Source of the DNA: Magnetovibrio sp.
GTDB taxonomy: Bacteria > Pseudomonadota > Alphaproteobacteria > Rhodospirillales > Casp-alpha2
Direction of reading: 5' to 3'
NCBI GenBank assembly: GCA_002722175.1
Contig: PBKU01000030.1
Location: 1-64,000, forward strand
Length of the DNA: 64,000 bases
Position numbers and translations under genes: made by a program. Each line of letters opens with the position of its first letter. Position 1 is the stretch's first letter. Below the pieces are notes generated by a model, which saw nothing but the letters and a program-made list of their open reading frames with translations, was not told the origin of the DNA and searched no databases. This document shows positions 42,649-63,904 of this stretch, one piece after another.

Positions 42649-43044
42649 CTAATCTCTAGCACTATCTCGCAGCCTTTCGATTTGGCGTCTTTGACGTTTA
42701 GTTGGCCTACCCGTCCCTGTTTCACGAATCCCCTGTACAAGTATCCTTTCCTTGTTCCTATCTCTAGAATCTGAGCGCGGTGACATATCATTGTACAAGG
42801 CAAGTGCGTCTTTTACGGGGCCACGGCGATCGGTGATAGAAACAATCTTAATAATTCTAACTCGTGATCCGAGAGAAAAGGTTAGCACGTCATCTAATTT
42901 AATTAATGAGTTAGCCTTTTTTACGCGTTTGCTGTTGATTCGAAGATTCCTGCTATTTACATAACGTGTCGCTTTTGTGCGGGTTCTAAAAAATCTGGCA
43001 CACCACAACCACTTGTCAACCCTGCTCTGATTTAAGCTTTTCAC
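42649..43044 (-). CDS. hslR: S4-domain RNA-binding protein, Hsp15 (HslR) family
   Basis: Predicted ribosome-associated RNA-binding protein of 131 residues. The S4 motif is at the N-terminus, SRVDKWLWCARFFRTRTKAT and RINSKRVKKANSLIKLDDVL, followed by VRIIKIVSITDRRGPVKDA and a very basic tail TGRPTKRQRRQIERL. In E. coli Hsp15 rescues stalled 50S subunits carrying nascent chains. Start is GTG 43044, which lies inside the end of the helicase gene (29-base overlap), indicating translational coupling; this helicase-S4 pair is common in alphaproteobacteria. Confidence 0.9.
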   Translation of the reverse strand: MKSLNQSRVDKWLWCARFFRTRTKATRYVNSRNLRINSKRVKKANSLIKLDDVLTFSLGSRVRIIKIVSITDRRGPVKDALALYNDMSPRSDSRDRNKERILVQGIRETGTGRPTKRQRRQIERLRDSARD

Positions 43045-45625
43045 TCTCTTCGCCTAGATTGTAAATTCTCTGTAACTTAAAAAAAGGTGAATTAGGGTCG
43101 TACCGGTTGTTTTTTTCTAAGTTGCCTCGTGTTTTTTGCTTTGGCCAAAACTTTCCCCTATTCTTTGGCCCTTTTTTGTTTGAAATGCAGCTAGCGATCC
43201 ATTCTTTGTTGTAGTGAGCTTTATTTTTTGACAACAAATCTATACTGCAGCCTAGCGCACTAAGTGCGCCTGCCAAAGCATTTCCTTTCGCGCCCAAAAA
43301 TGAGAATAGCCGCGGATTTACCTTGGTTGCGTTGTTTTTTTCTAAAAGCTTTACTTTTTCAAGAAACCTATTTGCAATATCGGCACGGATTGCAAGAGGC
43401 CCAATTGGAAAAAAGCCTATAGAATGATAGAAATCACTGGGAGTTTTTTGATCAATTAGTATCGATACTCCCCTCACAGGTGGAAGCTGTGGTATTTTTC
43501 CTTGATCGAAAAATATAGACCACAAGAGACCCCTCAGCATAGTAGCTTTAGGCTTCAAAAGAACTGGAAAAAAAACATTATGTTGGCCAAACCGAACGCC
43601 GCATTTACCTAGTATTTCTCTATCCTGTATTGATAGGTTTTCAATTTGTGCTTCCGCTTTTTCTCTAAGAACAGATCCAAGGCCTTCCGTAATTTGGAAC
43701 ATTAGTCCACGGGCTGAGTGACGAAGGCCTCGAGATAAGGGATGTTTTAGTGCCGAAAAATTGCTATCAAGAAAATCTTTTAACCAACTTTCCAAGCGAC
43801 ATTGAATCCGGGCGCTTTCCCTTGAATTCAATAACTCAATAGGCAATATTCTTACTTTGGGGAGAAGTAACGTGCTACTTTTTTCTAACTTTGCTACAGG
43901 AAATTCCCGCCAAAAAATCATACGGGTTGGGTCTCCCGATGAAAAACCACCAATTGAAAATGCATCGTCCTTATCTGCTTCAAGTAGTTGAATTCGGCGA
44001 TGGAATTCGCGTCTTATAGCTTTTTTGGACGCGTTAAAAATGATACGAGCAGTATTTCCAGATAGAGCGATATCCTTTGGTTGGAAGGAAAAGCCTTCAA
44101 TAGCACCTATATTATGTCCTTCAGCCATCACACTCCCATCATTACAGACGGAAACAACCAAATCCTTGTTTTCCATTATTCTGCTTACCAAAAAAGCATG
44201 ATGGCGATTGACGAATCTTTGGGTTAAGCGTTCATGAAGCGCGTCCGAAAGTCGATTTTCAACGGCGCGAACACGTTCCTGCCAATGAGAGGCCTCTGAA
44301 AGCCATTTTGGACGGTGCGATATATAAGTCCATGTCCGTATATAAGAAATACGCTGCATCAACGTTTCTATATTTCCATCAACACGATCCAACCTACTGA
44401 CCTGCTCTGCAAACCAGCTGTTAGGTATGCGCCGGTGTACCCCTGTCAGCTTTGTAAATACAATCTTCAATAGGAATGCATGAGCTTCAATGGTCTGTTT
44501 ACGAAAATCTGGAATTTGGCAAACATCCCACAATAGCCTAATTGTATTGTGATTATTGGCTTTTTTTTGTATTGAATGATCTCGAATTAAATAAGTAAAA
44601 ACTAGCTCATCCTCCACATTGTAGGAACGAACAAGGCCCTCTTTGGAGGGCGGTATTTGAAGTGATTTTAGGAGGTTTCCTAAAGATGAAAAATCAAGGT
44701 ATGGGTTTCGCCAGTAAATGCGATTAACAGGACTGAAACGGTGCTCCTCTATAGATTTAACAACCTTAGAGTCGATCGGTTCGCACTTACCTGTAGTACC
44801 AAAACTCCCATGGCACATATATCTACCCGCACGGCCTGCTGCCTGAGCTAGTTCAATAGAAGAGAGGTTTCGATTGCACCAACCATCAAATTTACTTAGT
44901 TCGGCAAAAGCAATATGCCGGATGTCCATATTAAGCCCCATCCCTATAGCATCAGTAGCAACCAAATAATCAACCTCACCGGCTTGGTACATACCAACTT
45001 GCGCATTTCGGGTACGCGGACTCAATGCACCCATTACGATAGCAGCTCCACCGCGTTGTCGACGAACTAATTCGGCAAGTTCATAAACATTTGGAGCTGA
45101 AAAAGAAACTATAGCAGATCTGGGAGGTAACCCCGTTATTTTTCGTTTCCCAATATAAGAGAGTGTAGATAGTCGGGGTCGCTGAACAATCTTGATGCTT
45201 GGGATAAGTCGTTTCAACAAACATTGGATAATATCAGACCCCATAAACATGGTTACTTTGTTTCCACGCGCATAAAGTAATCGCTCAGTGAAAATATGCC
45301 CGCGCTCTTTATCAGCACACATCTGGATTTCGTCGACGGCTAAAAAATCAACCGTACGTTGAGTTGGCATAGCCTCTACTGTGCAGATAAACCACTGTGC
45401 TTGTTTTGGAACAATCTTTTCTTCGCCAGTTATTAGTGCAACCCGACTTTTTCCTTTTATCCTTACGGCATGCTCATAGTTTTCTCGAGCTAACAAACGC
45501 AGTGGAAAACCTATAGTACCAGATTCAAGCGAAAGCATTTTTTGCATAGCAAAATAGGTCTTCCCAGTATTGGTGGGGCCGAGTAGCGCTGTTATTTCTG
45601 ATTTAAGTCCGTTATATTTAGCCAT
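43016..45625 (-). CDS. SUV3-type superfamily 2 RNA helicase
   Basis: ATP-dependent helicase related to mitochondrial SUV3, 869 residues. Walker A ALLGPTNTGKTYFAMQKML is near residue 15, Walker B LAVDEIQMCAD near 97, the motif III-like MGSDIIQ and motif VI QAAGRAGRYMCHGSFG complete the helicase core (about 1-290). The middle and C-terminal regions contain the SUV3-C-like FLGAKGNALAGALSALGC near 775, and the final 60 residues are basic (KKGPKNRGKFWPKQKTRGN). Function in bacteria is largely unknown but is presumably RNA processing or ribosome-related. Its 3' end overlaps the S4-domain gene by 29 bases. Confidence 0.92.
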   Translation of the reverse strand: MAKYNGLKSEITALLGPTNTGKTYFAMQKMLSLESGTIGFPLRLLARENYEHAVRIKGKSRVALITGEEKIVPKQAQWFICTVEAMPTQRTVDFLAVDEIQMCADKERGHIFTERLLYARGNKVTMFMGSDIIQCLLKRLIPSIKIVQRPRLSTLSYIGKRKITGLPPRSAIVSFSAPNVYELAELVRRQRGGAAIVMGALSPRTRNAQVGMYQAGEVDYLVATDAIGMGLNMDIRHIAFAELSKFDGWCNRNLSSIELAQAAGRAGRYMCHGSFGTTGKCEPIDSKVVKSIEEHRFSPVNRIYWRNPYLDFSSLGNLLKSLQIPPSKEGLVRSYNVEDELVFTYLIRDHSIQKKANNHNTIRLLWDVCQIPDFRKQTIEAHAFLLKIVFTKLTGVHRRIPNSWFAEQVSRLDRVDGNIETLMQRISYIRTWTYISHRPKWLSEASHWQERVRAVENRLSDALHERLTQRFVNRHHAFLVSRIMENKDLVVSVCNDGSVMAEGHNIGAIEGFSFQPKDIALSGNTARIIFNASKKAIRREFHRRIQLLEADKDDAFSIGGFSSGDPTRMIFWREFPVAKLEKSSTLLLPKVRILPIELLNSRESARIQCRLESWLKDFLDSNFSALKHPLSRGLRHSARGLMFQITEGLGSVLREKAEAQIENLSIQDREILGKCGVRFGQHNVFFPVLLKPKATMLRGLLWSIFFDQGKIPQLPPVRGVSILIDQKTPSDFYHSIGFFPIGPLAIRADIANRFLEKVKLLEKNNATKVNPRLFSFLGAKGNALAGALSALGCSIDLLSKNKAHYNKEWIASCISNKKGPKNRGKFWPKQKTRGNLEKNNRYDPNSPFFKLQRIYNLGEESEKLKSEQG

Positions 45626-50790: not shown

Positions 50791-50891
50791 GCAGATTGCT
50801 CCTTCAATAGCCTGAAAAAATACTATAATATATAGTATCTTTCCTAAACACTTATAAAGTAACAAGATTTAAGGAAAGGCTCTACTAATAA

Positions 50892-52128
50892 TTGACAAAC
50901 AATATTAATAGCAATGCTGATCGGTTATGGCGCAGCCTCATGGAAATAGCAAAGGTTGGTCCAACCGAGAATGGCGGGAACTTTAGACTTGCACTCTCCG
51001 ACCTCGATAAATAAGCTCGTGACTTGTTTGTTGAATGTTGTGAGGACGCGGGTTGTTTAATTTCTGTTGATGCGATAGGGAATATCTTTGTACGTCGACC
51101 GGGAAAAACCATACTCTGCCTAGCGTTATGGCTGGATCACATCTCGATACACAGCCAACTTGCGAGCGGTTTGATGACGTGTTAGGAGTTTTATCGGTTC
51201 TTGAGATAATCCGAACACTAAATGATAGAAACATTGAAACAAGTATTCCGATAGATGCTGTTTGCTGGATCAATGAGGAAGGTTCTCGCTTTGCCCCTTC
51301 TATGATGGGCTCTGATGTTCATACTGGAGTACTTGACCTTGATTCTATAAAGGCGTCCACTGATATTGATGGAAATTTACTTGCGCAAGAGCTTAGGCGG
51401 ATTGGGTGCGCCAGTAAACAAGTACCCGGAGAGCAGAAAGCCCGTGCTTATTTTGAACTTCATATTGCGCAAGGACCAATATTAGAACAAACCAACGCAA
51501 CCATTAGTTTGGTTGCCAGCGCGCAAGGGCAACAGTGGCTTGAAATACACGTCACAGGGACAGAAAGCCATGCAGGCCGCCTATGCCTCGACGCCGAGAT
51601 GCTCTGGTCGGGGCTTCAAAAATTCTCCAAGAAGTAGATAGAGTCGGCCCCCACTTTGCACCAAATGCGTGCACAACAGTAGGTATAATCAAGGCGTATC
51701 CCAACAGCCGGAATATGATTCCTGGATATGTTTTTCTTACAGTTGATTTACGTCACCCCAAGAATGGAATTCTCTCCAAAATGATCTCAACCTTAAAAAC
51801 TTTCTGCTCTAGGCTCGCCGCTAGTGATAAACTAAAGATAAAAATAACTGGTTTAGTTAATTTCCCAGCAGTTTCATTTAATAGTTCACGTATTGCGACC
51901 ATCCGAGAAGGTGCCAAGCTTCTTAGCCTGCCGTATAAGAGCATCGTATCTGGCGCGGACCATGACGCTGTCTATATGGCCCGAGTCAGACCTTCTGGAA
52001 TAATCTTTATCCCATGCAAAGACGGTATTAGCTATAATGAAGTTGAAAGTGCTTCCTATGACGATTGTGCATCTGGATGTAATGTTTTACTTCACGCCAT
52101 TCTTCAACTGGCACAGCCGTCTCATTAA
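50892..52128 (+). pseudogene. Broken hydantoinase/carbamoylase (allantoate amidohydrolase-type) M20 amidase
   Basis: Hand translation in three frames recovers an almost full-length zinc amidase. Frame one from about 50892 (possible TTG start) gives ADRLWRSLMEIAKVGPTENG and reaches TAA at 51012, where the family has a glutamine-like residue; translation continues ARDLFVECCEDAG. The second frame begins after a run of A at 51104-51108 and gives LPSVMAGSHLDTQPTCERFD and WINEEGSRFAPSMMG. The third begins around 51575-51581 and gives PPMPRRRDALVGASKILQE, NSRNMIPGYVFLTVDLRHP and IVSGADHDAVYMARV to the stop at 52128. Both frame changes fit a net loss of one base (or four). Metal and catalytic motifs remain, so decay looks recent; assembly error is the main alternative. 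Confidence 0.9.
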
Positions 52129-52238: not shown

Positions 52239-53111
52239 CTATTCTCTATCTCTATGAATCTGACTTGTCACGTCTGCAACCAATCCCAGTGCAAAAATCA
52301 AAGGAATTAATATAAGGCCCCCAACTCCCAAAAGAATAGCATTTTCTGACCCGACCAAAACACCATAGAAGATAGGAAACGACGACACACTCGTAAGGAA
52401 AAGACACAAAATGACAAATATTTTAATTGGGTTGTAGTAGTTTATTAATTGCACTATTTGCTGAAAAGTTCGTATCGAATCCCTGAACAAGCCAACTTTT
52501 GTCGACCCCAGACGGTCATAGTAGTCAATTGGACTAAAAACAACAAACTTACCACGAAACATGTATACTAGTGTAATTGAAGTAGTAAAACTGAAGCGGT
52601 CTGAAAACCGATGAAAAAATAACATTGAGGTTTTGCGAGAAAATATTCGTAATCCGGAATTTATATCTTCTATAGATCGGCCCGCAGCAAATTCAACAAG
52701 GACCCTTAGGGCCCTTCGCAATCGAAATTTTAAACCAGAGCCTCGGTAAACTGAGCCAGTACGTGCTCCTACAACCATATCGTAGCCTGCGTTATAAATT
52801 TCCAATAAACGAGGAATTTCGTTTATCGGATAAGTTCCATCCGCGTCAGAGATAGCAATTGCGTCAAATTTCGCCGCCTTGATGCCAGTTTTCAGGGCCT
52901 TGCCATACCCGATGTTATGAGGATGGTGTATAACTCTTATACCTTTAAGTTCTTCTAGTATATCACCTGTGCCATCTGATGACCCGTCGTTGACTACTAT
53001 TATTTCAAATTTATCAATTGTTTCTGCCCCGGTTAACGCACCCTTCAGTGTTTCCACAGTTGCTTTTATTGCTGCGCCTTCGTTATAAGCTGGAATTACT
53101 ACAGATAACAT
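52239..53111 (-). CDS. Family 2 glycosyltransferase, dolichol-phosphate mannosyltransferase-like, membrane-anchored
   Basis: Transfers a sugar from a nucleotide donor to a lipid or polyprenyl phosphate acceptor. From ATG 53111 (GGCAGG ribosome site) the 290 residues show the GT-A core LSVVIPAYNEGAAIKATVE, IIVVNDGSSDGTGDIL, IGYGKALKTGI, the DXD-like ISDADGTYPINE and VGARTGSVYRGSGLK, INSGLRIFSRK. The C-terminus has two predicted transmembrane helices (about 228-248 and 256-276). A TTG five codons upstream is less likely. It is divergent from a radical SAM gene and starts a stretch of accessory genes; the sugar and acceptor are unknown. Confidence 0.9.
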   Translation of the reverse strand: MLSVVIPAYNEGAAIKATVETLKGALTGAETIDKFEIIVVNDGSSDGTGDILEELKGIRVIHHPHNIGYGKALKTGIKAAKFDAIAISDADGTYPINEIPRLLEIYNAGYDMVVGARTGSVYRGSGLKFRLRRALRVLVEFAAGRSIEDINSGLRIFSRKTSMLFFHRFSDRFSFTTSITLVYMFRGKFVVFSPIDYYDRLGSTKVGLFRDSIRTFQQIVQLINYYNPIKIFVILCLFLTSVSSFPIFYGVLVGSENAILLGVGGLILIPLIFALGLVADVTSQIHRDRE

Positions 53112-53299
53112 TTTAATACCTGCCAACTACAATCTCTTGCACAACTTTGTTACAATAATTAGCCTCTCAGCAAGGCGTTATCTTGAAATACGTTAATATA
53201 ATTGTGGTAATATTGATAGTTTTTTATTATGTGTATAGTTCTTTCTATAGTAAGCATTCATAGCGTCGATTTAGATATTAATTTGAAAAAATAAACTTA

Positions 53300-54844
53300 A
53301 TGGCCAGTATCCTGTTGATCAATCCTTCATACGAACCAAGTTATGGTGGTTCGAGGGCTTCAATTGTTAACCCAATAATGCCGACACTTGGGTTAGCAAC
53401 CATCGCCGCCGTTGCTATCGAGAGAGGTCACAAAGTCGAAATTCTTGACTTGTCCTGGCGTCCATACAACCCGGCAATGGTTTTTGAGAGGCTTAAAAAA
53501 ACAAAGCCAGATATTGTAGGTTTGACGGGAACAACTCCTCTCATGAACCAAGTTAGGGATATTTCTGTTATAGTCAAAGATGTTTCAAAAGATATATTGT
53601 TAATTGCCGGCGGAGCACACCCGTCTGCCCTGCCGGAAGAAACTTTGCGAGAATCCCTAATTGACATAATTTGTGTTGGGGAAGCTGACTATTCGTTCTC
53701 TGACCTATGCGATGGAGCACATCCATCTGCAGTAAACGGTATTTACTATCGGGATGGAGAAAACGTTTTATCTACAGACTTAAGGCTCCCTATAAATAAT
53801 CTTGATGATTTACCTTTACCCGCCTGGGAATTATATAACCCTGAAGACTACCGGAAAATCTCCCGGCTTCTATGCAAAGCCCCGCCCTTGACTATGGCAG
53901 AATTTTCTAGAGGTTGTGTGTTCACATGTGATTTTTGTGCAAGCAAGATAACCCTTGCAAAGGGATATAGAAAAAAATCCCCTAAGCGTTGCGCAGAAGA
54001 AGTCACAAAAATGAAGACGCTCGGCTTTAACGAGTTTATGCTTGCTGACGATATTTTTACTTCAAATCAAAATTGGGCTGTTGAGGTATGTGAAGAAATC
54101 TTAAAAAAAGACCTAAAAATGGCATGGAGTTGCACTAATGGCATCAGAGTGGAGAGTGCTGATGACAACCTGTTCAATGCCATGCACAAAGCTGGCTGTT
54201 ATCGCGTATCGTTTGGATTTGAATCAGGTAACGACAAGGTATTGGAAATGTTTGGAAAAGGGGGACGGGCAAACATTGAGCAAGGGAAAAGTGCGGTTAT
54301 AAAGGCCCGAAAAGCTGGATTGGATACTAGCGGCTTTTTTCTGTTAGGCTTGTCCCCTGACACCGAGGACACCATGAAAGATACCATTAATTACGCTCGC
54401 GCCTTACCACTAGATATGATAAAGTTTGGTATTACCATAGCATTCCCTGGAACTAAAATGTTTAACGATTATGTGCGTAATCATTTAATACGGTCCTATA
54501 ATTGGGACGACTATTTTATTTATACTGACGAACCGTTATTTGCGCACAAGAATCTTACATATAAAACAATAAAAAAATATACTGAGCTAGCATACCGTCG
54601 CGCTATCTTAACAAACCCTGGCTTTATTCTTAGGCGAATTATTCGCGGTATAAGAACTAATGAATTTTTTTGGGATGTATTTTATGGCATAAAATTTTTT
54701 TTCATGCCATCTGTCACTGAAAAGGTGGATAGCAACTATCATTCTGCGGATCGCTGGCCTCAACATGACTTTGAAACCTTTCCGCCAAAACCAGCAAAGT
54801 ACCAGACAGTGAGAAAGCAAAAAACTACTGTAAAAGCAGCATGA
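53300..54844 (+). CDS. B12-binding-domain radical SAM protein
   Basis: Cobalamin-dependent radical SAM enzyme of 514 residues, class B-type layout. Residues about 1-150 form the cobalamin-binding Rossmann-like domain (MASILLINPSYEP, PTLGLATIAAVAIERGH, PDIVGLTGTTPL, LIAGGAHPSALPEE), and about 200-420 the radical SAM domain with the cluster motif CVFTCDFC (CxxxCxxC) in EFSRGCVFTCDFCASK, then FMLADDIFTSN, WSCTNGIRVES, VSFGFESGNDKVLEMFGKG. The tail is basic. Members methylate unreactive carbons or form C-C bonds in lipids and natural products. No substrate can be named; the neighbouring glycosyltransferase suggests a glycolipid. Confidence 0.92.
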   Translation: MASILLINPSYEPSYGGSRASIVNPIMPTLGLATIAAVAIERGHKVEILDLSWRPYNPAMVFERLKKTKPDIVGLTGTTPLMNQVRDISVIVKDVSKDILLIAGGAHPSALPEETLRESLIDIICVGEADYSFSDLCDGAHPSAVNGIYYRDGENVLSTDLRLPINNLDDLPLPAWELYNPEDYRKISRLLCKAPPLTMAEFSRGCVFTCDFCASKITLAKGYRKKSPKRCAEEVTKMKTLGFNEFMLADDIFTSNQNWAVEVCEEILKKDLKMAWSCTNGIRVESADDNLFNAMHKAGCYRVSFGFESGNDKVLEMFGKGGRANIEQGKSAVIKARKAGLDTSGFFLLGLSPDTEDTMKDTINYARALPLDMIKFGITIAFPGTKMFNDYVRNHLIRSYNWDDYFIYTDEPLFAHKNLTYKTIKKYTELAYRRAILTNPGFILRRIIRGIRTNEFFWDVFYGIKFFFMPSVTEKVDSNYHSADRWPQHDFETFPPKPAKYQTVRKQKTTVKAA

Positions 54845-54926
54845 TATGAATTGTATTCAGCAATCACCTGACCAAGATAGACTTATCATTTTTTAGCAGT
54901 CCGAACATTAATCTTTTGTTGAAATA

Positions 54927-56498
54927 CTAACCTGTCTGTCTTGCAATGTGTTCTGCTATACGGTTTGCATTCGCCATAATCGTGAATGTCAAATGTTTTG
55001 CGGGCAGAGTATTTAAGATCGACCCATCAACAACAAACAAATTGTGGTGACCATAAACTTCCCCTTTTGTCGATACCTCTTTTCCCATTGGCAAACTGCC
55101 CGCGTAGTGGGCATCCGCACCGGGGGACAACAACGATAATGAACCTGGGAGTAGATAACTTCCCAGTTTTCTCATATGCTTTGTAATTTTTTTAATTTGC
55201 CGATGGGCTAGCAATTCAAAGTCTTCCGCAAAATTACCTTCTATTTTTAAAATCGTTTTACCGTTTTTAGTTTTTTCCAGATGAAGTTCGTTTTTACTAA
55301 AACACCCCGGAAAATATATCAGACCTAACTGCAACGCCGACTGCAAAGCACCTAAAATCGCCAACCCACCGGGAACGCTGAAGGGCATATATGCAGCTAA
55401 GTCAGGCAAAGGAACATGAACGGCATCGGAAAGTATTCCGACAAACCCTTCATCAGATTCTTTCTTTTTCCCAACTATTTTTAACTGTGGCATCGAATAA
55501 TGATCTTCTGGAACCTGGTAACCTATTCGGCCGCGTAAAAAAAACGCGCATTGAAAAGTTGGATTTGTCAATATCGGTAATCGCTGAAAAAATCGACTTT
55601 GAAGCTTTAAAATTAACTTTGTTGATGTAACTGCACCAGCAGCCAAAATTAATATGGAGCTTTCAACCAATTTACATTCAGCTTTGGAATTTCTACAATG
55701 AATCTCCCATCCTGTGCCCTTTGGAACGAGCATTTCAACGCAATGATCTTCTACAAGCCTAAAATTACTAAAAGCTTTGAGGCACTCTAATTCATCACTA
55801 CTATTATATGCGGCTCCGTTTTTACACCCAAAAAAACAAGAGCCCCCCAAAGAGCAACCACTGCGTTTTCCCATTTTTTGGCTAAGAACAGCCTTATGGG
55901 TGCATCCTATTCTAATCTCTTCTTTCGATTCCTTTAGATGACGATCCAACAATATTTTCATGTTAGCAGAAAGAGGAAGATTAGTCTGAAGGTCAATAGT
56001 CGAATCAGGCAATAAAAAGTCACTGTCAAAAACGCCACTGAACCCAATTCGCTCTGCTACAGATTTGTACGAAGGACCTAGATCTGAAAGATTAATCTCC
56101 CAATCGACAAGATCATAATCATCAAATTGATCAACAACACAACCCCAGAAGTTAGACAAACCACCTCGACCGTGAACACCTATCAGGGAAAAATTACTAG
56201 AAGACACATTATTTCTCCGCTTATACGATTCCACTTGTTTGACATTACCTGTTGATCGAATCTTTGGTGATACCCCAAATGCTAAATCAAGACATGAAAG
56301 GTCATTGCCTAATATTTCTCTTCCTGAACGGTTTTTCTGCTGACGGTGTTGAAACAGTTTCAAACAAGGGTGATCGCGTAAAACTAGCGGCTCAGAACCT
56401 GCTTCGAGCATAAGAACATCATGTCCAGCCTCTACTAATGGCCACGCTGCACTTACTCCTGCAGGTCCACTCCCCACGATTACAATTTTTTTTACCAT
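54927..56498 (-). CDS. GMC-type FAD-dependent oxidoreductase
   Basis: Flavoprotein alcohol/sugar oxidoreductase of 523 residues. N-terminal FAD motif IVIVGSGPAGVSAAWPLVEAG; substrate region GVHGRGGLSNFWGCVVDQFD; C-terminal GMC signature ADAHYAGSLPMGKEV with the catalytic His, followed by GHHNLFVVDGSILNTLPAKH and TFTIMANANRIAEHI. A cysteine cluster GCSLGGSCFFGCKNGAAY in the middle resembles the Cys-rich segment of some GMC dehydrogenases. It has no signal peptide and no membrane anchor. It is the last gene of a tight operon; its ATG overlaps the stop of the epimerase gene by one base. Confidence 0.88.
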   Translation of the reverse strand: MVKKIVIVGSGPAGVSAAWPLVEAGHDVLMLEAGSEPLVLRDHPCLKLFQHRQQKNRSGREILGNDLSCLDLAFGVSPKIRSTGNVKQVESYKRRNNVSSSNFSLIGVHGRGGLSNFWGCVVDQFDDYDLVDWEINLSDLGPSYKSVAERIGFSGVFDSDFLLPDSTIDLQTNLPLSANMKILLDRHLKESKEEIRIGCTHKAVLSQKMGKRSGCSLGGSCFFGCKNGAAYNSSDELECLKAFSNFRLVEDHCVEMLVPKGTGWEIHCRNSKAECKLVESSILILAAGAVTSTKLILKLQSRFFQRLPILTNPTFQCAFFLRGRIGYQVPEDHYSMPQLKIVGKKKESDEGFVGILSDAVHVPLPDLAAYMPFSVPGGLAILGALQSALQLGLIYFPGCFSKNELHLEKTKNGKTILKIEGNFAEDFELLAHRQIKKITKHMRKLGSYLLPGSLSLLSPGADAHYAGSLPMGKEVSTKGEVYGHHNLFVVDGSILNTLPAKHLTFTIMANANRIAEHIARQTG

Positions 56499-57790
56499 TA
56501 TCGTCGCTGAGCTAAATAACGCATTATCATAACAACCCCCTCTATGAGGCTTACGAAAACAACCTTCAATAATAACATAGCAGATAAACGTTTCTCCAAT
56601 AATACATAAGATTTTTCTGGTGGGGCATAGGCATCATGAATTAATGCAGCAACCTGGATACGGCCAGCTAAACCACTAAATGACCGCTCGATCGACTTCC
56701 CCGATTCAATGAAACGAATCAAGCTTGGATACTTTAAAAAAATAAATGGAAGATATGCAGCTACGTTGTCAAAGTTTTTTTCAATTGCTTCTGCATATGC
56801 TCTTAGACTTGAAAGGTTTACGAATCCTTTTCCAACATAATACAGCAATGCAGCACCTTCTAATAAAATCGCCCTTTTGTGACTCTTGCTAGATAGCGCC
56901 AACCCTTTTTCAAACTTGTTTACTCTCAACCTAATTTCGTTTAGTCCCTCGCTAGTTTCAAAAACAGGTGCTCCTTTTAGCCCCATGATTCTTTCTTTAT
57001 CTATCTGGGGAAAAAAAGGAAGTTTGTTTGTAATTTTAACGCCAACCAATGCTAGTGAAAGGGGTACTGGAACTAGAATTATTGATCTACCATGATGTAT
57101 CCTTGCTAACTTAGTCAAAAAATCTCCAAACAAGACCGGGTTTTCGCTAGCTAAACCAAAAATTTTCTGACGTGAATTTTTTAGAATCGCTACTTTGATT
57201 AATCCAATCGCCACCTCATCTATCCTTATTGGTTGTACCTTTTTCTTTATTCCAATCATCGGAAGAATGAAATTTTTTGATACCAAATTATTTAGAGTAT
57301 TCCATTGACCTGACTCTTTTCCTCCGTAAACTAAGCCGATCCGAGCAACTACCTCGTTACGGCCTTTTAAAAGTTTTTCCGTTTGATACTTAACACGCCC
57401 GTACTGATTTAGAGCATCCTCTTGAGCTGAAATGCTTGAACAGAAAATAAAGCGCTTTACCCCATTTTTCCGTGCTGCTTCAACTAACAGTTTTGACCCG
57501 ATATAGTTCTCATCAAATCTATCAGAGCGATCTATATCCCACTGATGCGCTAAGTGAATCACCACGTCAACAGCGGAACAGTTTTCTGAGCCAAGAAACA
57601 CCTTATCCGGAATCTGTGATCCGAGCGACCAAGGAAAGAAACGAACCGAACTTTTTTCTAAGTTTTGTGGAATAGAACGCCCAATAACCGTTAACTTTGC
57701 TCCGCGCGAGACCAGCTTCTCTAGAAGAGCCGACCCAATATAACCTGACGCCCCAGTAATCAGAAAATGATAAGTTGTCAAATCTTTCAA
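56498..57790 (-). CDS. NAD-dependent epimerase/dehydratase with unrecognised C-terminal extension
   Basis: Extended short-chain dehydrogenase of 430 residues. The N-terminal Rossmann motif is LITGASGYIGSALLEKLVSRG; the catalytic Tyr-Lys pair is in NQYGRVKYQTEKLL (about 133-146) after FCSSISAQEDA; the domain ends near residue 300. The remaining about 120 residues (LLEGAALLYYVGKGFVNLSS, IQVAALIHDAYAPPEKSYVLL) are mostly helical with a hydrophobic stretch near the end (LLKVVFVSLIEGVVMIMRYL) and are not part of the usual epimerase fold. Start is TTG 57790 with a GAGG ribosome site. It lies fifteen bases after asnB and overlaps the GMC gene by one base. Confidence 0.85.
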   Translation of the reverse strand: MKDLTTYHFLITGASGYIGSALLEKLVSRGAKLTVIGRSIPQNLEKSSVRFFPWSLGSQIPDKVFLGSENCSAVDVVIHLAHQWDIDRSDRFDENYIGSKLLVEAARKNGVKRFIFCSSISAQEDALNQYGRVKYQTEKLLKGRNEVVARIGLVYGGKESGQWNTLNNLVSKNFILPMIGIKKKVQPIRIDEVAIGLIKVAILKNSRQKIFGLASENPVLFGDFLTKLARIHHGRSIILVPVPLSLALVGVKITNKLPFFPQIDKERIMGLKGAPVFETSEGLNEIRLRVNKFEKGLALSSKSHKRAILLEGAALLYYVGKGFVNLSSLRAYAEAIEKNFDNVAAYLPFIFLKYPSLIRFIESGKSIERSFSGLAGRIQVAALIHDAYAPPEKSYVLLEKRLSAMLLLKVVFVSLIEGVVMIMRYLAQRR

Positions 57791-57805
57791 AAGAAGCCTC
57801 AGCTC

Positions 57806-59713
57806 TTAGGTTTTTAACTCACGATGATATCTTTCTAACCAAAGCCCCAGGCTAATCAAACTAAATAATTTAAAGCTGTTATCACTAATTCTCGATTCGT
57901 GATTCTCCCAGATTTTCTGAATTTCCTTTATATTAAACCATTCACTCAGGTATTGGTTATGCAGTGTATCCCAAGCAAGCTCTTTAAACGGACCTCTAAG
58001 CCAATTACTCACCGGTGCGTTAAACCCTTTTTTCTTGCAGTTAAGAAACCCTGCTGGAAACCTGGCTTCCAGTGCTTTTTTTAATATATACTTGCTTCTC
58101 AATCCTTTTAGCTTCCACGCAACTGGAAGGCTTGCTGCAAATTCAACCAATCTATGATCTAAAAATGGAGTACGTACTTCTAGCGAATGCGCCATGGAAG
58201 AACGATCGACTTTCACTAAAATATCGTCTACTAGCCATGTATTTAAATCAACGTACATTGCCTGATCCAAATAATGGCACCCTGAAACCTGACTCGCAAA
58301 CCCTGAAAACTGATCGAACGCATTTACCTCTAAAACAGAGGGCGACACGTCATCTAGTAGAATATTTTCCATCTCATCCCTTGAAAAAATCTGCCGCCAA
58401 GAATAATGAGCGTTCATCGGATCCAGCCTAATACCTGAGGCAAACTTTTTAATCTTATATCCAAAAGATATTTTCCTATCGCTAACCGGTATACAAGAGG
58501 CTACAAGTTGAAAAAACGGATTAGTGATTGATGGAGAAAGGAAACTTAATACATGATGAATCTTATCGGCTTTATATGTTTCATATCCAGCAAATAACTC
58601 ATCACCTGCATCCCCCGACAAACATGTCTTAACATATCTACGCGCAAATTCTGCCAAAAAATATGCCGGGATAATTGAGTTGTCGGCAAATGGTTCATCA
58701 GCCGCCCAAACAATTCTTGGAAGCTCGTTAGTTAAGTTAACTTCAACTATTTTTGCTCTATGAAATACCCCCATATATTCGGCCGCGGTGCGCGCTTCGG
58801 GCAGCTCGCTGTATGACCGCTCTCTAAAGCCAATCGAAAATGTCTTGGTTTGTGATTGGCCAAGATATTGCGTCATACTTGATACAACTGCTGAAGAATC
58901 TACCCCCCCGCTCAAAAAAGCACCAAACGGTACATCGCATCGCGTACGCATCTGGACTGAGTTATCAAATAATTCTACAAACTCTTTTTTTGCCATTGAA
59001 AAACTCTGATCCTCGCGTTTTTGAACAAAATAGTTTCTTAAATTCCAGTATTTGTGAAAACGTATTGAACCATTAGGAGAAAGAACTATAAATTGAGCGG
59101 GCGCTAGCTTTGCAACTCCCTTTATTATGCACATATTCCCTAAAATATAGTTCAGTGACAAATACTGGGAAAATGCACCAGGATTGATTTCTCGCGGAAA
59201 TTCTGGGTGGACCATTAAAGCTTTTAATTCTGAAGCAAACACTATCCCACCTTTTTTTGGAAAAAAATAAAATAGTGGTTTTTCACCCATACGATCACGA
59301 GCCAAGATTAACTTTTGTTTTCTCTCATCCCATATAGCAATTACAAACATGCCATTTAATTTACTAAATATATCAGTTCCCCAAAAATCATAGCCCTTCA
59401 AAATTACTTCCGCATCACCACAGCTAGTAAATTGCATGCCCGAAGCTTCCAGTTCATTTCTAAGTTCGATAAAATTATAGATTTCTCCATTAAAACAAAC
59501 AATTGACTTAGTTTCCTTGGATTCTATCGGTTGATTGCTGGCATCATTTAAATCGACAATAGATAATCGTCGATGGCCAAGTGTAACCCTTTCACGGGAT
59601 ATAATCCCATATGCATCAGGACCACGGTGCACTAGCCTCTGTGTCATTAACTTAACTATTTCGGTACGCTCTTTTTTTGATGTACCTCTAAGAACTCCTG
59701 CAATTCCACACAT
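57806..59713 (-). CDS. asnB: Asparagine synthase (glutamine-hydrolysing) family amidotransferase
   Basis: Two-domain amidotransferase of 635 residues. The N-terminal Ntn glutaminase begins with the catalytic Cys in MCGIAGVLRG and contains RLVHRGPDAYG, GHRRLSIVDLNDASNQPIE and CFNGEIYNFIELRNELEASG; the ATP-pyrophosphatase synthetase half has FGAFLSGGVDSSAVVSSMTQ, TCLSGDAGDELFAGYETYK and HSLEVRTPFLDHRLVEFAAS. This form often makes asparagine but homologues in glycan and natural-product loci amidate other carboxylates. Being the first gene of the epimerase-GMC operon points to the latter. Divergent from a methyltransferase gene (124 bases). Confidence 0.92.
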   Translation of the reverse strand: MCGIAGVLRGTSKKERTEIVKLMTQRLVHRGPDAYGIISRERVTLGHRRLSIVDLNDASNQPIESKETKSIVCFNGEIYNFIELRNELEASGMQFTSCGDAEVILKGYDFWGTDIFSKLNGMFVIAIWDERKQKLILARDRMGEKPLFYFFPKKGGIVFASELKALMVHPEFPREINPGAFSQYLSLNYILGNMCIIKGVAKLAPAQFIVLSPNGSIRFHKYWNLRNYFVQKREDQSFSMAKKEFVELFDNSVQMRTRCDVPFGAFLSGGVDSSAVVSSMTQYLGQSQTKTFSIGFRERSYSELPEARTAAEYMGVFHRAKIVEVNLTNELPRIVWAADEPFADNSIIPAYFLAEFARRYVKTCLSGDAGDELFAGYETYKADKIHHVLSFLSPSITNPFFQLVASCIPVSDRKISFGYKIKKFASGIRLDPMNAHYSWRQIFSRDEMENILLDDVSPSVLEVNAFDQFSGFASQVSGCHYLDQAMYVDLNTWLVDDILVKVDRSSMAHSLEVRTPFLDHRLVEFAASLPVAWKLKGLRSKYILKKALEARFPAGFLNCKKKGFNAPVSNWLRGPFKELAWDTLHNQYLSEWFNIKEIQKIWENHESRISDNSFKLFSLISLGLWLERYHRELKT

Positions 59714-59837
59714 TTTTTATCCTATAATGATTTGACCAGGATTCTACACTGCGCTAATAATTTTGTCCCCTTTTAACATTCCTTCCGGCCGAAAATAATT
59801 TCATCTGAATTCTTCGTTTAAAAAACTGTTTTCATAT

Positions 59838-60659
59838 ATGCATAAGACCCAAAAAAACCAAAAAAAGGAAAGCGAGTGGTTCGAGCAATGGGAAATGTTC
59901 GAAGATAACGAACTCTTTTTATTTGAGGACTGGATTGCTCCATTAACACTTGACGATTTTTTAGGAAAACACGTGCTTGAATGTGGGTGTGGCGGAGGCC
60001 AACATACCAGATTTGTAGCACCATATTGCAAAAGCATTACTGCAATCGACCTAAATACGGCAGAAATTGCACGCGACTACACAAAGAGCTTACATAATGT
60101 TGAAATTCTCGAAGGTGATATAGCAACAATTGATTTAGGGCGACAATTTGATATTGTTTTTTGCATTGGCGTTATACACCATACAGACAATCCTGATACC
60201 ACGTTTTTGAACCTCTTCCGCCATGCTAAACCTGGAGGGAAGATAGTGGTTTGGACATATAGCGCAGAAGGGAATGAAATCATGCGCTTTATTGTAGAGC
60301 CTATCCGAAAGGCACTTCTAAGAAATGTTAACCGAAGGACAATTTACCAAATTTCAAAATTAATAACACTTGCTTTGTACCCTGTCGTCCACACCATATA
60401 TTCACTGTCGATATTTTCATTTTTGCCTTACTATGAATATTTTAAAAACTTCAGAAAATTATCTTTTAAAAGAAACCTGTTGAATATTTTCGATAAATTA
60501 AATGCCCCACAAACACATTTTACAACAAAAAATAAGTGCTATGAGTGGTTTAATCCACTGAGATTTAAAGCAGGTTCTATTTCTATTAAACGCTATAGAG
60601 GAGTTAGCTATTCTCTTCTTGGGGAAAAGCTAGGCCCGGAGCAAAAATATGTTAAATGA
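59838..60659 (+). CDS. Class I SAM-dependent methyltransferase
   Basis: A 273-residue methyltransferase. Motif I VLECGCGGGQHTRFVAP (about 47-63), acidic TAIDLNTAEIARDY, motif II IVFCIGVIHHTDNPDTTF and motif III AKPGGKIVVWTYS are clear; the C-terminal part (about 160-270) is less conserved and includes a hydrophobic stretch YPVVHTIYSLSIFSFLPY. The N-terminal 20 residues are Lys/Gln-rich. Similar proteins occur in LPS and glycan loci. The ATG is at the very start of a divergent region to asnB. Its stop overlaps the next gene by eleven bases, indicating an operon with the membrane protein. Confidence 0.88.
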   Translation: MHKTQKNQKKESEWFEQWEMFEDNELFLFEDWIAPLTLDDFLGKHVLECGCGGGQHTRFVAPYCKSITAIDLNTAEIARDYTKSLHNVEILEGDIATIDLGRQFDIVFCIGVIHHTDNPDTTFLNLFRHAKPGGKIVVWTYSAEGNEIMRFIVEPIRKALLRNVNRRTIYQISKLITLALYPVVHTIYSLSIFSFLPYYEYFKNFRKLSFKRNLLNIFDKLNAPQTHFTTKNKCYEWFNPLRFKAGSISIKRYRGVSYSLLGEKLGPEQKYVK

Positions 60660-62502
60660 GCAAACGAACAATCCGGTATTCATCTCAATCTGGAAAAAAT
60701 TACCATCTATTATTCTAATATTTACATTTTTTTTCATAGTATTAACAAGATTTCAGTCGTTTGGCCCCCCTTACAACATATACCTACCCATTATTTATTT
60801 TGTAAAAAACCCTGGTGTCTTCCCGGTCGATCCATTCTTTCCGAACTCAGTATACCTTCAAGCCTCGATTTATTACAAATTAATTACCTATTTTAACATT
60901 CCAATAGAAAATGATTTATTTGCATTATTAATACACACCTTCCTTTCCGGGACCCTCATATGGTTTATAGCAAAAACTATTCTACGTCACTTTAGTCTAT
61001 CGGAAATAGAAACTGCCGTATGCATTACTTTTATATGCTGTTTTCTGCACTCACAATTCGTTATTGGTTCCAGGCCATCAATTATAAGCATAGTTAGCTC
61101 GAGCCCCACTGGGTTTGCTCATATTCTTGGTTTATTTGCTTTTTTCTCGCTCTTACGCGAGCGCGTGTTGCCTGCAGCTTTGCTCGCCACACTGTGCATA
61201 GCCCTGTCTCCAAAGGGGCACGTAATACTCATACCAATATTAGCGCTCTTTATATTCATTAACTCAAATGTTTCACTACAAAAAACACTCTACCTTCTAA
61301 TACCTATCGGCTATATTACCTGGATTCTTCTAACTGGTGAAAAAAATACTTTGTCGCACTCTCAGCTTGTCGAGTTAACAAAACAGTTAATTTTGCGAGA
61401 AGAAGAGGATGCTTCATTTGCAAAACAACCGTTGCTTACCCATATCCTGTTATTTTCTTCTTTTATATTTTTTGTATTCTATATAAAAAGATTCCAAAGT
61501 TCTTCTCTAAAAGCTTTGGGTTGGGCTACCTTTTTGTGCACGTTAGCAACATATTTTGGAGGCCTTATTTATCCTATCATTGGATATAAATTTTTGCCTA
61601 TTCCCGAGCTAATCATACTGTCGCCCTGTCAAAATACCCGATATTTTGCCTTATTTGTTGTACTTATGGCTCTAACATTATTGTTGAAAAATTCTTATTT
61701 CGCTTGCCATGAAAAAGTTGCTATAGTTACTTCTATTATAATTCTCAAGCCATTTTATCCTCAAATTTTTATTGCGGCAGCAATTATTGTGTTATTTGTT
61801 CTCCTGCCACGGTATTTTTTTCATATCAGACCTTATTATATTGATCGTATATACCTAATCCGAAAATTTGAGCAGATCCCTATATCAATTATTTTTTGTG
61901 GATTACTAATATCTTACACGTTAGCTAGGATGCCTCAAAATTACGTAGCCCCTTCCTGGATAGATTTAGTTGCATACAAGTTTTCATCAACGTGGTCTGG
62001 ACAAGTCTGGGCTAGCGAAGCTACGTGGCTCGCGTGGTCAAAAGTGCGTCAAATCAAAAATGACTTTGTTTTCTTAGCTATTTATGAAAATCAACGCTTT
62101 AATCTAACTCCTATAGGAGGCGTGGACAATAAACTCTACGTTGAACACGGGTCTGCTAATATCCACGCAAACAAGTCACCATTTAGACAAATCCCTGTGC
62201 ACGGGTATTTGAATCCTGATCTCTGGAAATTGGGACACAAACAGGACATCATTAGTAATCTTATTTTAGAACGGGTAAACAATCTTGAGCCACTGAGGGA
62301 CAAAGAATGGATCGGGTCACTCCCCTCAGTAAAGGAAGGTATCCCAATCACGTTTAACCAGACGCTTGGAAATTATCTCAAAAAATTAAAGTGTGTCATA
62401 ATGGTGCCAAAATCTTTGGAACACCTATTTTTCACAAATACACCAAGAATTTCAATAGATGATTTTACACTTTTCTCTTACGGAGTTGACATTCCTCAAT
62501 AA
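60649..62502 (+). CDS. Polytopic membrane protein of unknown function
   Basis: I do not recognise a family. The 617-residue protein has about eleven to thirteen hydrophobic segments between residues 15 and 440, a first long loop with FPVDPFFPNSVYLQASIYY, and a soluble C-terminal region of about 170 residues (GSANIHANKSPFRQIPVHG, DPDLWKLG-like LNPDLWKLGHKQDII). This layout recalls GT-C glycosyltransferases or polymerases of glycan loci, but the acidic catalytic residues of such enzymes cannot be assigned. The gene is visibly very AT-rich. It overlaps the methyltransferase gene by eleven bases. A flippase, polymerase or GT-C function are all possible. Confidence 0.7.
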   Translation: MLNEQTNNPVFISIWKKLPSIILIFTFFFIVLTRFQSFGPPYNIYLPIIYFVKNPGVFPVDPFFPNSVYLQASIYYKLITYFNIPIENDLFALLIHTFLSGTLIWFIAKTILRHFSLSEIETAVCITFICCFLHSQFVIGSRPSIISIVSSSPTGFAHILGLFAFFSLLRERVLPAALLATLCIALSPKGHVILIPILALFIFINSNVSLQKTLYLLIPIGYITWILLTGEKNTLSHSQLVELTKQLILREEEDASFAKQPLLTHILLFSSFIFFVFYIKRFQSSSLKALGWATFLCTLATYFGGLIYPIIGYKFLPIPELIILSPCQNTRYFALFVVLMALTLLLKNSYFACHEKVAIVTSIIILKPFYPQIFIAAAIIVLFVLLPRYFFHIRPYYIDRIYLIRKFEQIPISIIFCGLLISYTLARMPQNYVAPSWIDLVAYKFSSTWSGQVWASEATWLAWSKVRQIKNDFVFLAIYENQRFNLTPIGGVDNKLYVEHGSANIHANKSPFRQIPVHGYLNPDLWKLGHKQDIISNLILERVNNLEPLRDKEWIGSLPSVKEGIPITFNQTLGNYLKKLKCVIMVPKSLEHLFFTNTPRISIDDFTLFSYGVDIPQ

Positions 62503-62676: not shown

Positions 62677-62701
62677 GACGCAATACTTGGGAAGACATCT
62701 A

Positions 62702-63904
62702 ATGGTAAAAAAAAGCGGCACTAAAATTCTCGCAATGCCTGGACCGACAAACGTGCCAGAAGAAGTCATTCAGGCAATGAACAGGCCCGCAATTGATATA
62801 TATAGTGGAGAGGCGGTCGATATTACAAAGAGTTGTCTGGCAGACCTTAAGCATATTTTTCGAACAAAATTTCACACCTTTGTATTTGCATCAAACGGTC
62901 ATGGTGTATGGGAAGCAGCGTTATCTAATTTGTTCTCATCAGGTGATACCGTTCTTATTCCAGTCTGCGGTCATTTTCCAGTCAGTTGGTCCTATTTCGC
63001 GAAACGCCTGGGCGTTAAAGTTGAATTTCTTGAGGCTGCTAACGAAAGGGCTGCTAATGACCCCAAAAAACTTAAGACCGCACTTGGCGCTGATAAGAAA
63101 CATAAAATCAAAGCTGTTCTGCAAGTTCATATTGATACAGCTTCAAGCGTGGTTAACGATTTGGCGTCGATAAGACAAGCAATTGATGACGCAAAGCATC
63201 CGGCCCTTCTGGTTGTTGATGCAATAGCTTCTCTAGGAATTGTTCCCTTGGAAATGGACGCCTGGGGAATTGACGTAGTAATAGCCGCTTCACAAAAGGG
63301 ACTCATGATGACACCGGGGCTTGGTTTTATCGCTGCTAATGAGAAAGCACTACATATAAGTAAAAAAACCAACTTAAAAAGTGGGTATTGGGATTGGCAC
63401 GATCGTCAAGATGAACCTCACTACAAGAAATACTGCGGAACCGCCCCAGTCCACTTAATGATGGGACTTCGTAAATCTCTTAACCTAATGCTTGAAGAAA
63501 CAATGGAAACGATCTGGATTCGACATGCCCGGCTGGCAGAGGCTGTGCGGCGTGCTATAGACGTTTGGGCTACTAAAGGAGAGCTTAGTTTTAACGTTCT
63601 AGAAAAAAATCAACGATCTAATGCTGTAACTACAGTGCTTCTGCGCGACGGAATCAATCCGGAAATTTTGACCAATTACTGCCGCCAGAATCTTTGTGTG
63701 ATACTAGGAATTGGTATTGGAACTTTTGAGGGTAGATCCTTTCGAATCGCACATATGGGCTACTTAAATGAGGCGATGATATTTGGAATTATTGGAGCCG
63801 TGGAAACTGCACTTAAATCTCTCTCGATACCGCACGGATCCGGGGGGGTTCAGGCAGCTATCGATTACCTAGCAACAGGCCCACATACTGGAAACTTTAA
63901 CTAA
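62702..63904 (+). CDS. Serine-glyoxylate (alanine-glyoxylate family) aminotransferase, class V
   Basis: PLP-dependent aminotransferase of 400 residues from ATG 62702 (GGGAAG ribosome site). It shows MPGPTNVPEEVIQAM, FVFASNGHGVWEAALSNLFS, VLQVHIDTASSVVNDL, LLVVDAIASLGIVPLEMDAWG and the PLP lysine in VIAASQKGLMMTPGLGF, then GTAPVHLMMGLRKSLNLML and RIAHMGYLNEAMIFG. This is the serine-glyoxylate/alanine-glyoxylate group used in glycine/serine metabolism and the serine cycle. A CoA-ester lyase of the malyl-CoA type lies at 45.9 kb, which would fit a serine-type cycle, but they are not neighbours. Confidence 0.9.
   Translation: MVKKSGTKILAMPGPTNVPEEVIQAMNRPAIDIYSGEAVDITKSCLADLKHIFRTKFHTFVFASNGHGVWEAALSNLFSSGDTVLIPVCGHFPVSWSYFAKRLGVKVEFLEAANERAANDPKKLKTALGADKKHKIKAVLQVHIDTASSVVNDLASIRQAIDDAKHPALLVVDAIASLGIVPLEMDAWGIDVVIAASQKGLMMTPGLGFIAANEKALHISKKTNLKSGYWDWHDRQDEPHYKKYCGTAPVHLMMGLRKSLNLMLEETMETIWIRHARLAEAVRRAIDVWATKGELSFNVLEKNQRSNAVTTVLLRDGINPEILTNYCRQNLCVILGIGIGTFEGRSFRIAHMGYLNEAMIFGIIGAVETALKSLSIPHGSGGVQAAIDYLATGPHTGNFN

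Follow-up and report, generated by a model that had tools for sequence, protein, structure and literature searches.

A seven-gene locus of Magnetovibrio sp. as a candidate module for the remodelling and transfer of a lipid-linked sugar

A candidate sugar-remodelling locus

The analysis covered the first 64 kb of contig PBKU01000030.1 (83.6 kb), which belongs to the draft genome (2.79 Mb) of Magnetovibrio sp., an alphaproteobacterium of the Rhodospirillales; this stretch of 64,000 nucleotides is referred to below as the window. Within it, positions 52239–62502 hold seven genes, which are abbreviated here as GT2 (a glycosyltransferase), rSAM (a B12-binding radical S-adenosylmethionine (SAM) enzyme), GMC (an oxidoreductase), EPI (an epimerase-like short-chain dehydrogenase/reductase, SDR), ASN (an asnB-type amidotransferase), MT (a methyltransferase) and MEM (a membrane protein). 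On balance, we favour the reading that this locus is a module for the remodelling and transfer of a lipid-linked sugar. It is probably a real pathway, since most of the gene kit recurs in unrelated bacteria. A preliminary description of the DNA had proposed a locus for modification of a surface glycan or glycolipid; this proposal gained from co-occurrence of the genes in other genomes and from a GT-C-like model of MEM, whereas its suggestions of radical methylation, of co-regulation within the divergent gene pairs and of a fixed gene set were less well supported.

All seven genes of that description are present as open reading frames (ORFs), and six of them were assigned to Pfam families, MEM being the exception. 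They are not chance ORFs, because each has homologues in other genomes. In all six enzymes checked (MEM apart) the motifs associated with activity are intact: MCG and SGGVDS in ASN, GxxGxxG and YxxxK in EPI, GxGxxG and His464 in GMC, ECGCGGG in MT, DAD in GT2, and CX3CX2C in rSAM (residues 206–213; 53915–53938, plus strand).

Recurrence of the gene set

Order-wide counts refer to 316 other genomes of the same order (317 with the Magnetovibrio genome itself); G-numbers denote genomes of this order and L-numbers denote fetched loci. In G048, which belongs to another family of the order, six of the seven genes (MEM, GT2, rSAM, GMC, EPI and ASN) lie within ~10 kb, and the methyltransferase near this module is just 23% identical to MT of the window. 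A different combination of six, consisting of ASN, GT2, GMC, EPI, MT and rSAM, was found together in each of L096, L108 and L110, whose records are titled Nitrospirae, Gammaproteobacteria and 'bacterium', respectively. Magnetospirillum moscoviense (L083/L095, judged by matching length and position to be one contig, as were L086/L098) carries five of the seven in the order GT2-rSAM-GMC-EPI-ASN, and Paramagnetospirillum kuznetsovii carries four (GT2, rSAM, GMC and EPI). Partial arrangements were also observed: rSAM-GT2 and GMC-EPI-ASN lie ~11 kb apart on one contig of G149; MT-MEM-GT2 is close to GMC and ASN in G166 and G167, with no rSAM in the stretch; G134 has ASN, GT2, a split MT (two pieces), EPI and GMC together with a different radical SAM gene; and ASN and GT2 are adjacent in G006, G037, G152 and G148. 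L096 contains, in one 18-kb stretch, three radical SAM genes along with ASN, GT2, GMC, EPI and MT.

Besides the Magnetovibrio genome itself, 8 of the 317 genomes searched have a relative of rSAM with 61–67% identity, 16 have GMC (a set that includes two fragments and two weak matches) and 14 have GT2 at an identity of at least 50%. A 100-relative search with GMC matched 40 genomes, mostly over short Rossmann-fold stretches that were not counted as homologues. By the hypergeometric distribution over 316 genomes, rSAM and GMC are common to 5 genomes vs 0.41 expected (p 9e-6), rSAM and GT2 (at least 50%) to 5 vs 0.35 (p 4e-6), and GMC and GT2 (at least 50%) to 9 vs 0.71 (p 3e-10), values that ignore kinship and horizontal transfer.

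A scan of genome contigs with an rSAM alignment yielded 39 loci, with record titles from several phyla; a scan of the contigs with the single GMC protein found no relative. Partners were then counted in 40 loci, namely 37 of these 39 (the fragments L129 and L130 were excluded) plus L039, L084 and L088, using self-chosen bit limits and the proteins of L096 and L108 as additional GMC and EPI queries. The rSAM of L128, which is split in two, fell under the threshold, and the rows L039/L088, L097/L112, L103/L105 and L104/L107 each share one genome or assembly. Within the stretches fetched for the 26 loci with rSAM of at least 58% identity, GT2 was found in nine (one at 36%), GMC in nine, EPI in six, a close ASN in five, a close MT in three and MEM in one. 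Plasmids were also searched with rSAM, MEM, MT and GT2, and none of the four was matched at the thresholds applied. Overall, the genes largely belong together as a modular set, whose parts seem to be exchanged like cassettes around GT2 and ASN.

A predicted polyprenyl-phosphate glycosyltransferase and a GT-C-like membrane protein

The product of the GT2 gene (52239–53126, minus strand) consists of a catalytic domain (PF00535, 113 bits) and two C-terminal transmembrane-like segments at 232 and 255. Comparison with the PDB identified ArnC as the nearest solved structure, with DPM1 and sll0501 further down, and the family and nearest structures support a predicted activity as a polyprenyl-phosphate glycosyltransferase of the ArnC/DPM1/GtrB type. 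Its relatives in module loci are 42–58% identical, and the GT2 tree, which is unrooted and moderately supported, contains a 17-row group with support of 87/90.

MEM (60649–62502, plus strand, 617 amino acids) had no match in Pfam or NCBIfam at E 1e-3, and thus none to a curated GT-C family such as PMT or ArnT. An AlphaFold model built from 11 sequences reached a pLDDT of 85.1 and a pTM of 0.84, and its leading structural matches in both Foldseek and VIA were GT-C enzymes, among them STT3, ALG12, ArnT, EmbB and AftA. GT-C enzymes filled the first twelve Foldseek rows (best E 1.7e-3). In VIA, Z values up to 12.3 over ~415 residues were obtained (ArnT 5f15: Z 11.7, 433 residues, root-mean-square deviation 6.9), on a scale where helical models can reach Z 13–14 without a clear relative. 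Because GT-C enzymes fill the top match rows, we assign MEM, at the level of the fold only, as a GT-C-type membrane glycosyltransferase, which is how its predicted fold is best read. An acidic Asp in the first extracytoplasmic loop is catalytic in GT-C enzymes; in MEM the loop after the first helix contains Asp61 (60829–60831), a candidate catalytic residue kept in 10 of the 11 aligned sequences.

Taken together, GT2 and MEM would correspond in their anatomy to an enzyme that makes a polyprenyl-phosphate sugar and the membrane transferase that goes with it. The Arn pathway uses ArnC as polyprenyl-phosphate transferase and ArnT as GT-C enzyme, and GT2 and MEM match these two in type, consistent with a sugar that is loaded on polyprenyl phosphate and transferred by a GT-C enzyme. 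Unlike the Arn pathway, the locus has GMC, SDR, asnB, B12 radical SAM and methyltransferase genes in place of the Arn sugar-modifying enzymes, and MEM lacks a Pfam match to PMT/ArnT.

A GMC-family dehydrogenase paired with an SDR

GMC (54927–56498, minus strand) is a flavin adenine dinucleotide (FAD)-dependent dehydrogenase of 523 amino acids (PF05199), with FAD-glucose dehydrogenase 6a2u as nearest PDB entry. It contains a CX5CX3C motif (Cys215, Cys221 and Cys225; 55824–55856, minus strand), of which all three Cys are kept in 17 of 18 aligned sequences; His464 is kept in 18 of 18. In a profile alignment this motif coincides with the cysteine stretch of the Burkholderia enzyme 6a2u, the catalytic subunit of which carries a 3Fe-4S cluster on cysteines near Cys213 (PMC9727119). 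The three Cys are hence candidate ligands, and GMC probably carries a [3Fe-4S] cluster. The two enzymes further share the GMC family and the catalytic His, and the locus has a small separable partner domain that may be comparable to the small hitch-hiker subunit, exported by twin-arginine translocation (TAT), which FAD-glucose dehydrogenase has along with a triheme cytochrome. They differ in that no cytochrome gene is present among the seven, no TAT signal was seen by eye, and the partner domain of the locus has no PDB sequence match at E 1.

That partner domain is the C-terminal extension of EPI. EPI (56498–57790, minus strand, 430 amino acids) is an extended SDR of the NAD-dependent epimerase/dehydratase family (PF01370, 55 bits); its model (pLDDT 84.8) has NDUFA9-type and sugar 4-epimerase SDRs as nearest folds, with Z 26–27 over ~260–308 residues. 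The extension comprises the last ~126 residues (residues 305–430; 56501–56878, minus strand), which form a helical domain that is separable and ends in a hydrophobic helix; no Pfam match and no match to a PDB-chain sequence at E 1 was found for it. Nine EPI proteins of alignment A2 contain this domain (one of them cut by the stretch taken), and the SDRs of L096, L108 and L110, which are shorter, lack it. In G166 and G167 it occurs free-standing, as ORFs of 140 and 142 amino acids directly before GMC (L061:4241–4663 and L062:14125–14553), and the SDR part was not found in the fetched stretch. We consider the extension a candidate docking or anchor domain for GMC.

GMC and EPI are neighbours in the window, in G002, G048, G049, G134, G140, G149, G155, G168 and G310, in L108, and in two Rhizobium plasmid loci that were opened. 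Plasmid searches with GMC and EPI matched 56 and 55 records, respectively, every one of them from Rhizobium. In the two opened loci (L090 and L091) the EPI-GMC pair stands at the end of a run of genes in the order SIS-GT2-polytopic protein-LPG_synthase_TM-epimerase-HAD/NTase-GHMP kinase-EPI-GMC, the polytopic protein of L090 having no Pfam match. This cluster is similar to ours in having an EPI-GMC pair (~31–36% identical) next to GT2 and a polytopic protein. It is dissimilar in that heptose-activation-like genes (HddA and GmhB models, below cutoffs) replace ASN, rSAM and MT, and in that its polytopic protein has no profile relation to MEM.

The pairing of GMC with EPI, the 1-nt overlap of their genes and the shared domain suggest a flavin-dependent oxidation followed by reduction by the SDR, by analogy with DprE1/DprE2. 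In the decaprenylphosphoryl-ribose 2-epimerase formed by these two proteins, an FAD oxidase and an NAD(P)H reductase act in turn (PMC9993113). The likeness is that a flavin enzyme and an adjoining SDR, with a putative reductase role, stand beside a GT2 of the polyprenyl-phosphate-sugar type. The oxidase of the locus is, however, a GMC protein (PF05199) with a cysteine motif, no FAD family of the DprE1 type was matched in Pfam, and the SDR has an extra domain. DprE1 belongs to another flavin family than GMC.

The radical SAM enzyme, the amidotransferase and the methyltransferase

The rSAM gene (53300–54844, plus strand) encodes 514 amino acids with B12-binding and radical SAM domains (PF02310 and PF04055). 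Its architecture is shared with HpnJ and BchE, which gave the best NCBIfam scores; rSAM differs from them in its gene context and remains under both curated cutoffs (HpnJ, 166.7 vs 577.6 bits; BchE, 165.5 vs 481.35 bits). The preliminary description had invoked radical methylation. HpnJ and BchE are named among the cobalamin radical SAM enzymes without methylation in a preprint (PMC13142503), so that methylation by rSAM is not a safe assignment: the nearest named families, though far below cutoff, are non-methylating ones. Beyond the module, rSAM occurs near GT2, a PMT_2-type membrane protein and a methyltransferase in L084, and near a methyltransferase and a PMT_2-type protein just under the Pfam cutoff in L104; it seems to be common to several glycan pathways. 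Records titled Pelagibacter (L101 and L122, genomes of ~0.8 Mb) have an rSAM at 61–62% identity, which in L122 lies near a GT2 gene and near genes for YdjC-like and DUF6311 proteins.

ASN (57806–59713, minus strand, 635 amino acids) is a glutamine-dependent amidotransferase of the asparagine-synthase type (PF00733, 299 bits; PF13537) in which the glutaminase Cys and the SGGVDS loop are retained. Relatives located beside GT2 are 36–48% identical to it and other copies 30–36%, ranges that touch. A 12-row group in the ASN tree (support 89/93; unrooted and moderately supported) excludes the ASN of L061, L062 and L096. A role in the XrtA/PEP-CTERM exosortase system is disfavoured, given a TIGR03108 score for ASN of 543.1 vs a cutoff of 816.9 bits and no exosortase (0 matches to PF09721 at E 1e-3 in the same genome, which is 91% complete). 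MT (59838–60659, plus strand, 273 amino acids) is a class I SAM methyltransferase (PF08241), with relatives at 52–60% identity in L061, L062, L096, L108 and L110; in L171 it is in two pieces.

Proposed pathway

We infer the reactions, the order of steps, the sugar and the acceptor in what follows; the gene presence, co-occurrence, families and predicted folds given above are observed. In the first step, GT2 would charge polyprenyl phosphate at the cytoplasmic face with a sugar supplied by a nucleotide donor, as its family and nearest structures support. In the second step the sugar might be remodelled either on the nucleotide or on the lipid. Here GMC would oxidise a hydroxyl to a carbonyl via FAD and its probable [3Fe-4S] cluster, and EPI would reduce this carbonyl, much as DprE1 and DprE2 act in turn, so that the net result is an epimerisation or a keto/deoxy adjustment, with the separable C-terminal domain of EPI docking or anchoring GMC. 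ASN may amidate a carboxylate, for example that of a uronic acid; rSAM may methylate or rearrange the carbon skeleton, and MT may methylate. In the third step, after flipping by a protein that would be encoded elsewhere, MEM would take the finished sugar off its polyprenyl phosphate and attach it, across the membrane, to an acceptor in the envelope such as lipopolysaccharide (LPS), another glycolipid or a polysaccharide, a role supported by its predicted fold.

Counterevidence and alternative explanations

Several observations weigh against this pathway. The preliminary description had proposed co-occurrence of the seven proteins as a test; most do co-occur in distant genomes, but the complete seven were seen in the window only, their parts are exchangeable, and in 17 of the 26 loci with rSAM of at least 58% identity the stretch that was fetched, sometimes a short one, contains no relative of GT2. 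In the 13 loci with rSAM at 46–56%, none of the six partners was found. Relatives of MEM are present in 12 of the 317 genomes (own included) and accompany the module elsewhere only in G048, G166 and G167; the polytopic proteins of L090, L096 and L099 have no profile relation to MEM, and the MEM fold matches shown are at 6–16% identity, with no Foldseek E below 1e-3. In L096, L108 and L110, GMC is 23–26% and EPI 27–33% identical to that of the window. The pairing itself is loosened in L096, where rSAM sits between EPI and GMC, in L110, where EPI and GMC are ~4.5 kb apart, and in L099 and L125, which have GMC and no EPI. Finally, the cluster contains no sugar-nucleotide gene except possibly EPI and no flippase gene; GtrA was not found in the same genome, in which three LPG_synthase_TM proteins are encoded elsewhere.

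The main rival, which we regard as unlikely even so, is decoration at the nucleotide-sugar level in an ordinary locus of the O-antigen or capsule type. GMC, SDR, ASN, rSAM and MT would then act on sugars bound to uridine or guanosine diphosphate (UDP or GDP) or on the repeat unit as it grows, GT2 and MEM would be ordinary enzymes of assembly, and the locus would be one of many serotype-like sets with no distinct lipid-linked remodelling. The modular and sporadic composition of the set (rSAM is found in 9 of the 317 genomes) agrees with such a locus, as do the surroundings in L083 and L086, where some relatives lie among genes for UDP-GlcNAc 2-epimerase, a DegT aminotransferase and Gfo/Idh proteins; moreover, the genome has four further asnB copies, and one of them (L046) adjoins a GT2 relative. 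On the other hand, Pfam and NCBIfam revealed no Wzx/Wzy-like gene and no initiating transferase gene in the cluster, GT2 with its two C-terminal segments is closest to polyprenyl-phosphate transferases, and six families found together under titles of different phyla appear to go beyond the shuffling expected of serotypes.

A hopanoid head-group pathway, in which bacteriohopanepolyol would receive a modified sugar through the action of an HpnJ-like rSAM, an HpnA-like SDR and GT2, is very improbable. HpnJ (166.7 bits) and HpnA (47.3 bits) are indeed the top NCBIfam models for rSAM and the SDR, the genome has a squalene-hopene cyclase as well as a match to HpnH that exceeds the cutoff, and a strong cyclase match was obtained in 6 of 14 other rSAM genomes. 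These scores nevertheless lie far under the curated cutoffs of 577.6 (HpnJ) and 367.65 bits (HpnA), and no cyclase was matched in the genomes of L108, L110 and L095, which have five or six module genes (some are drafts); both points led us to disfavour this explanation. The genome of L096 has just a weak cyclase match, bringing the total to 7 of the 14 rSAM genomes, and a GT-C partner does not seem to fit such a pathway.

Least probable of all is a secreted small molecule, such as an aminoglycoside-like or amidated natural product, with GMC and an AprD4-like rSAM tailoring the sugar and ASN forming an amide: AprD4 is the top PDB match of the rSAM profile (75.5 bits) and GMC weakly resembles pyranose oxidases, but Pfam shows no carrier, nonribosomal peptide or polyketide synthase, export or resistance gene among the seven, and GT2 and MEM look like membrane glycosyltransferases.

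Gene organisation and flanking regions

The genes for EPI and GMC overlap by 1 nt at a TAATG junction and those for MT and MEM by 11 nt, and ASN precedes EPI by 15 nt. The operon described earlier as tightly overlapping is therefore so at EPI-GMC (and there is a second overlap at MT-MEM), whereas ASN is merely close. The divergent pairs GT2/rSAM and ASN/MT exist as described, with intergenic gaps of 173 and 124 nt, respectively; a promoter scan over the region gave 21 promoter-like sites vs 28.8 expected, and hence no enrichment.

The left flank holds a broken amidohydrolase, an agmatinase-like ORF and ORFs that look leuB/leuD-like by eye, and the right flank a class-V aminotransferase followed by ORFs that seem by eye to be unrelated; these flanking genes do not look part of the seven-gene cluster. 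The amidohydrolase/allantoate-hydrolase-like pieces at 50866–52128 lie in three frames and are pseudogene-like, or reflect a sequencing error. The class-V aminotransferase right of the cluster (62687–63904) has BhcA as top NCBIfam model (329.9 bits vs a cutoff of 650). Further away in the window, an ORF of 869 amino acids (43016–45625) had no NCBIfam match at E 1e-30.

Novelty and significance

No description of this gene set or its chemistry was recognised in the open-licence literature, as judged from titles and abstract openings among the papers listed. A lipid-linked sugar combined with a GT-C enzyme is a familiar overall logic, of which this choice of remodelling enzymes and the coupling of GMC to an SDR make, as far as searched, a new variant. 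With the present analysis, a membrane protein that had no family match gains a predicted fold and a working role, and the extension of EPI gains a working role. In its boldest form, which we put forward tentatively and hold to be doubtful as a whole, the proposal is that an Fe-S GMC enzyme and an SDR, coupled by a docking domain, epimerise or deoxygenate a polyprenyl-phosphate sugar, that rSAM alters the skeleton and ASN amidates it, and that the genes form a phylum-crossing cassette for a new class of envelope sugar.

The known precedent for the remodelling of a lipid-linked sugar by a flavin enzyme and a reductase is mycobacterial DprE1/DprE2. If our reading is true, M. moscoviense and P. 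kuznetsovii, cultured magnetospirilla in which a large part of the module is present, would offer a test system, and an independent version of this chemistry, in which other enzyme families are joined by a B12 radical SAM enzyme, would extend the known range of bacterial surface-sugar chemistry.

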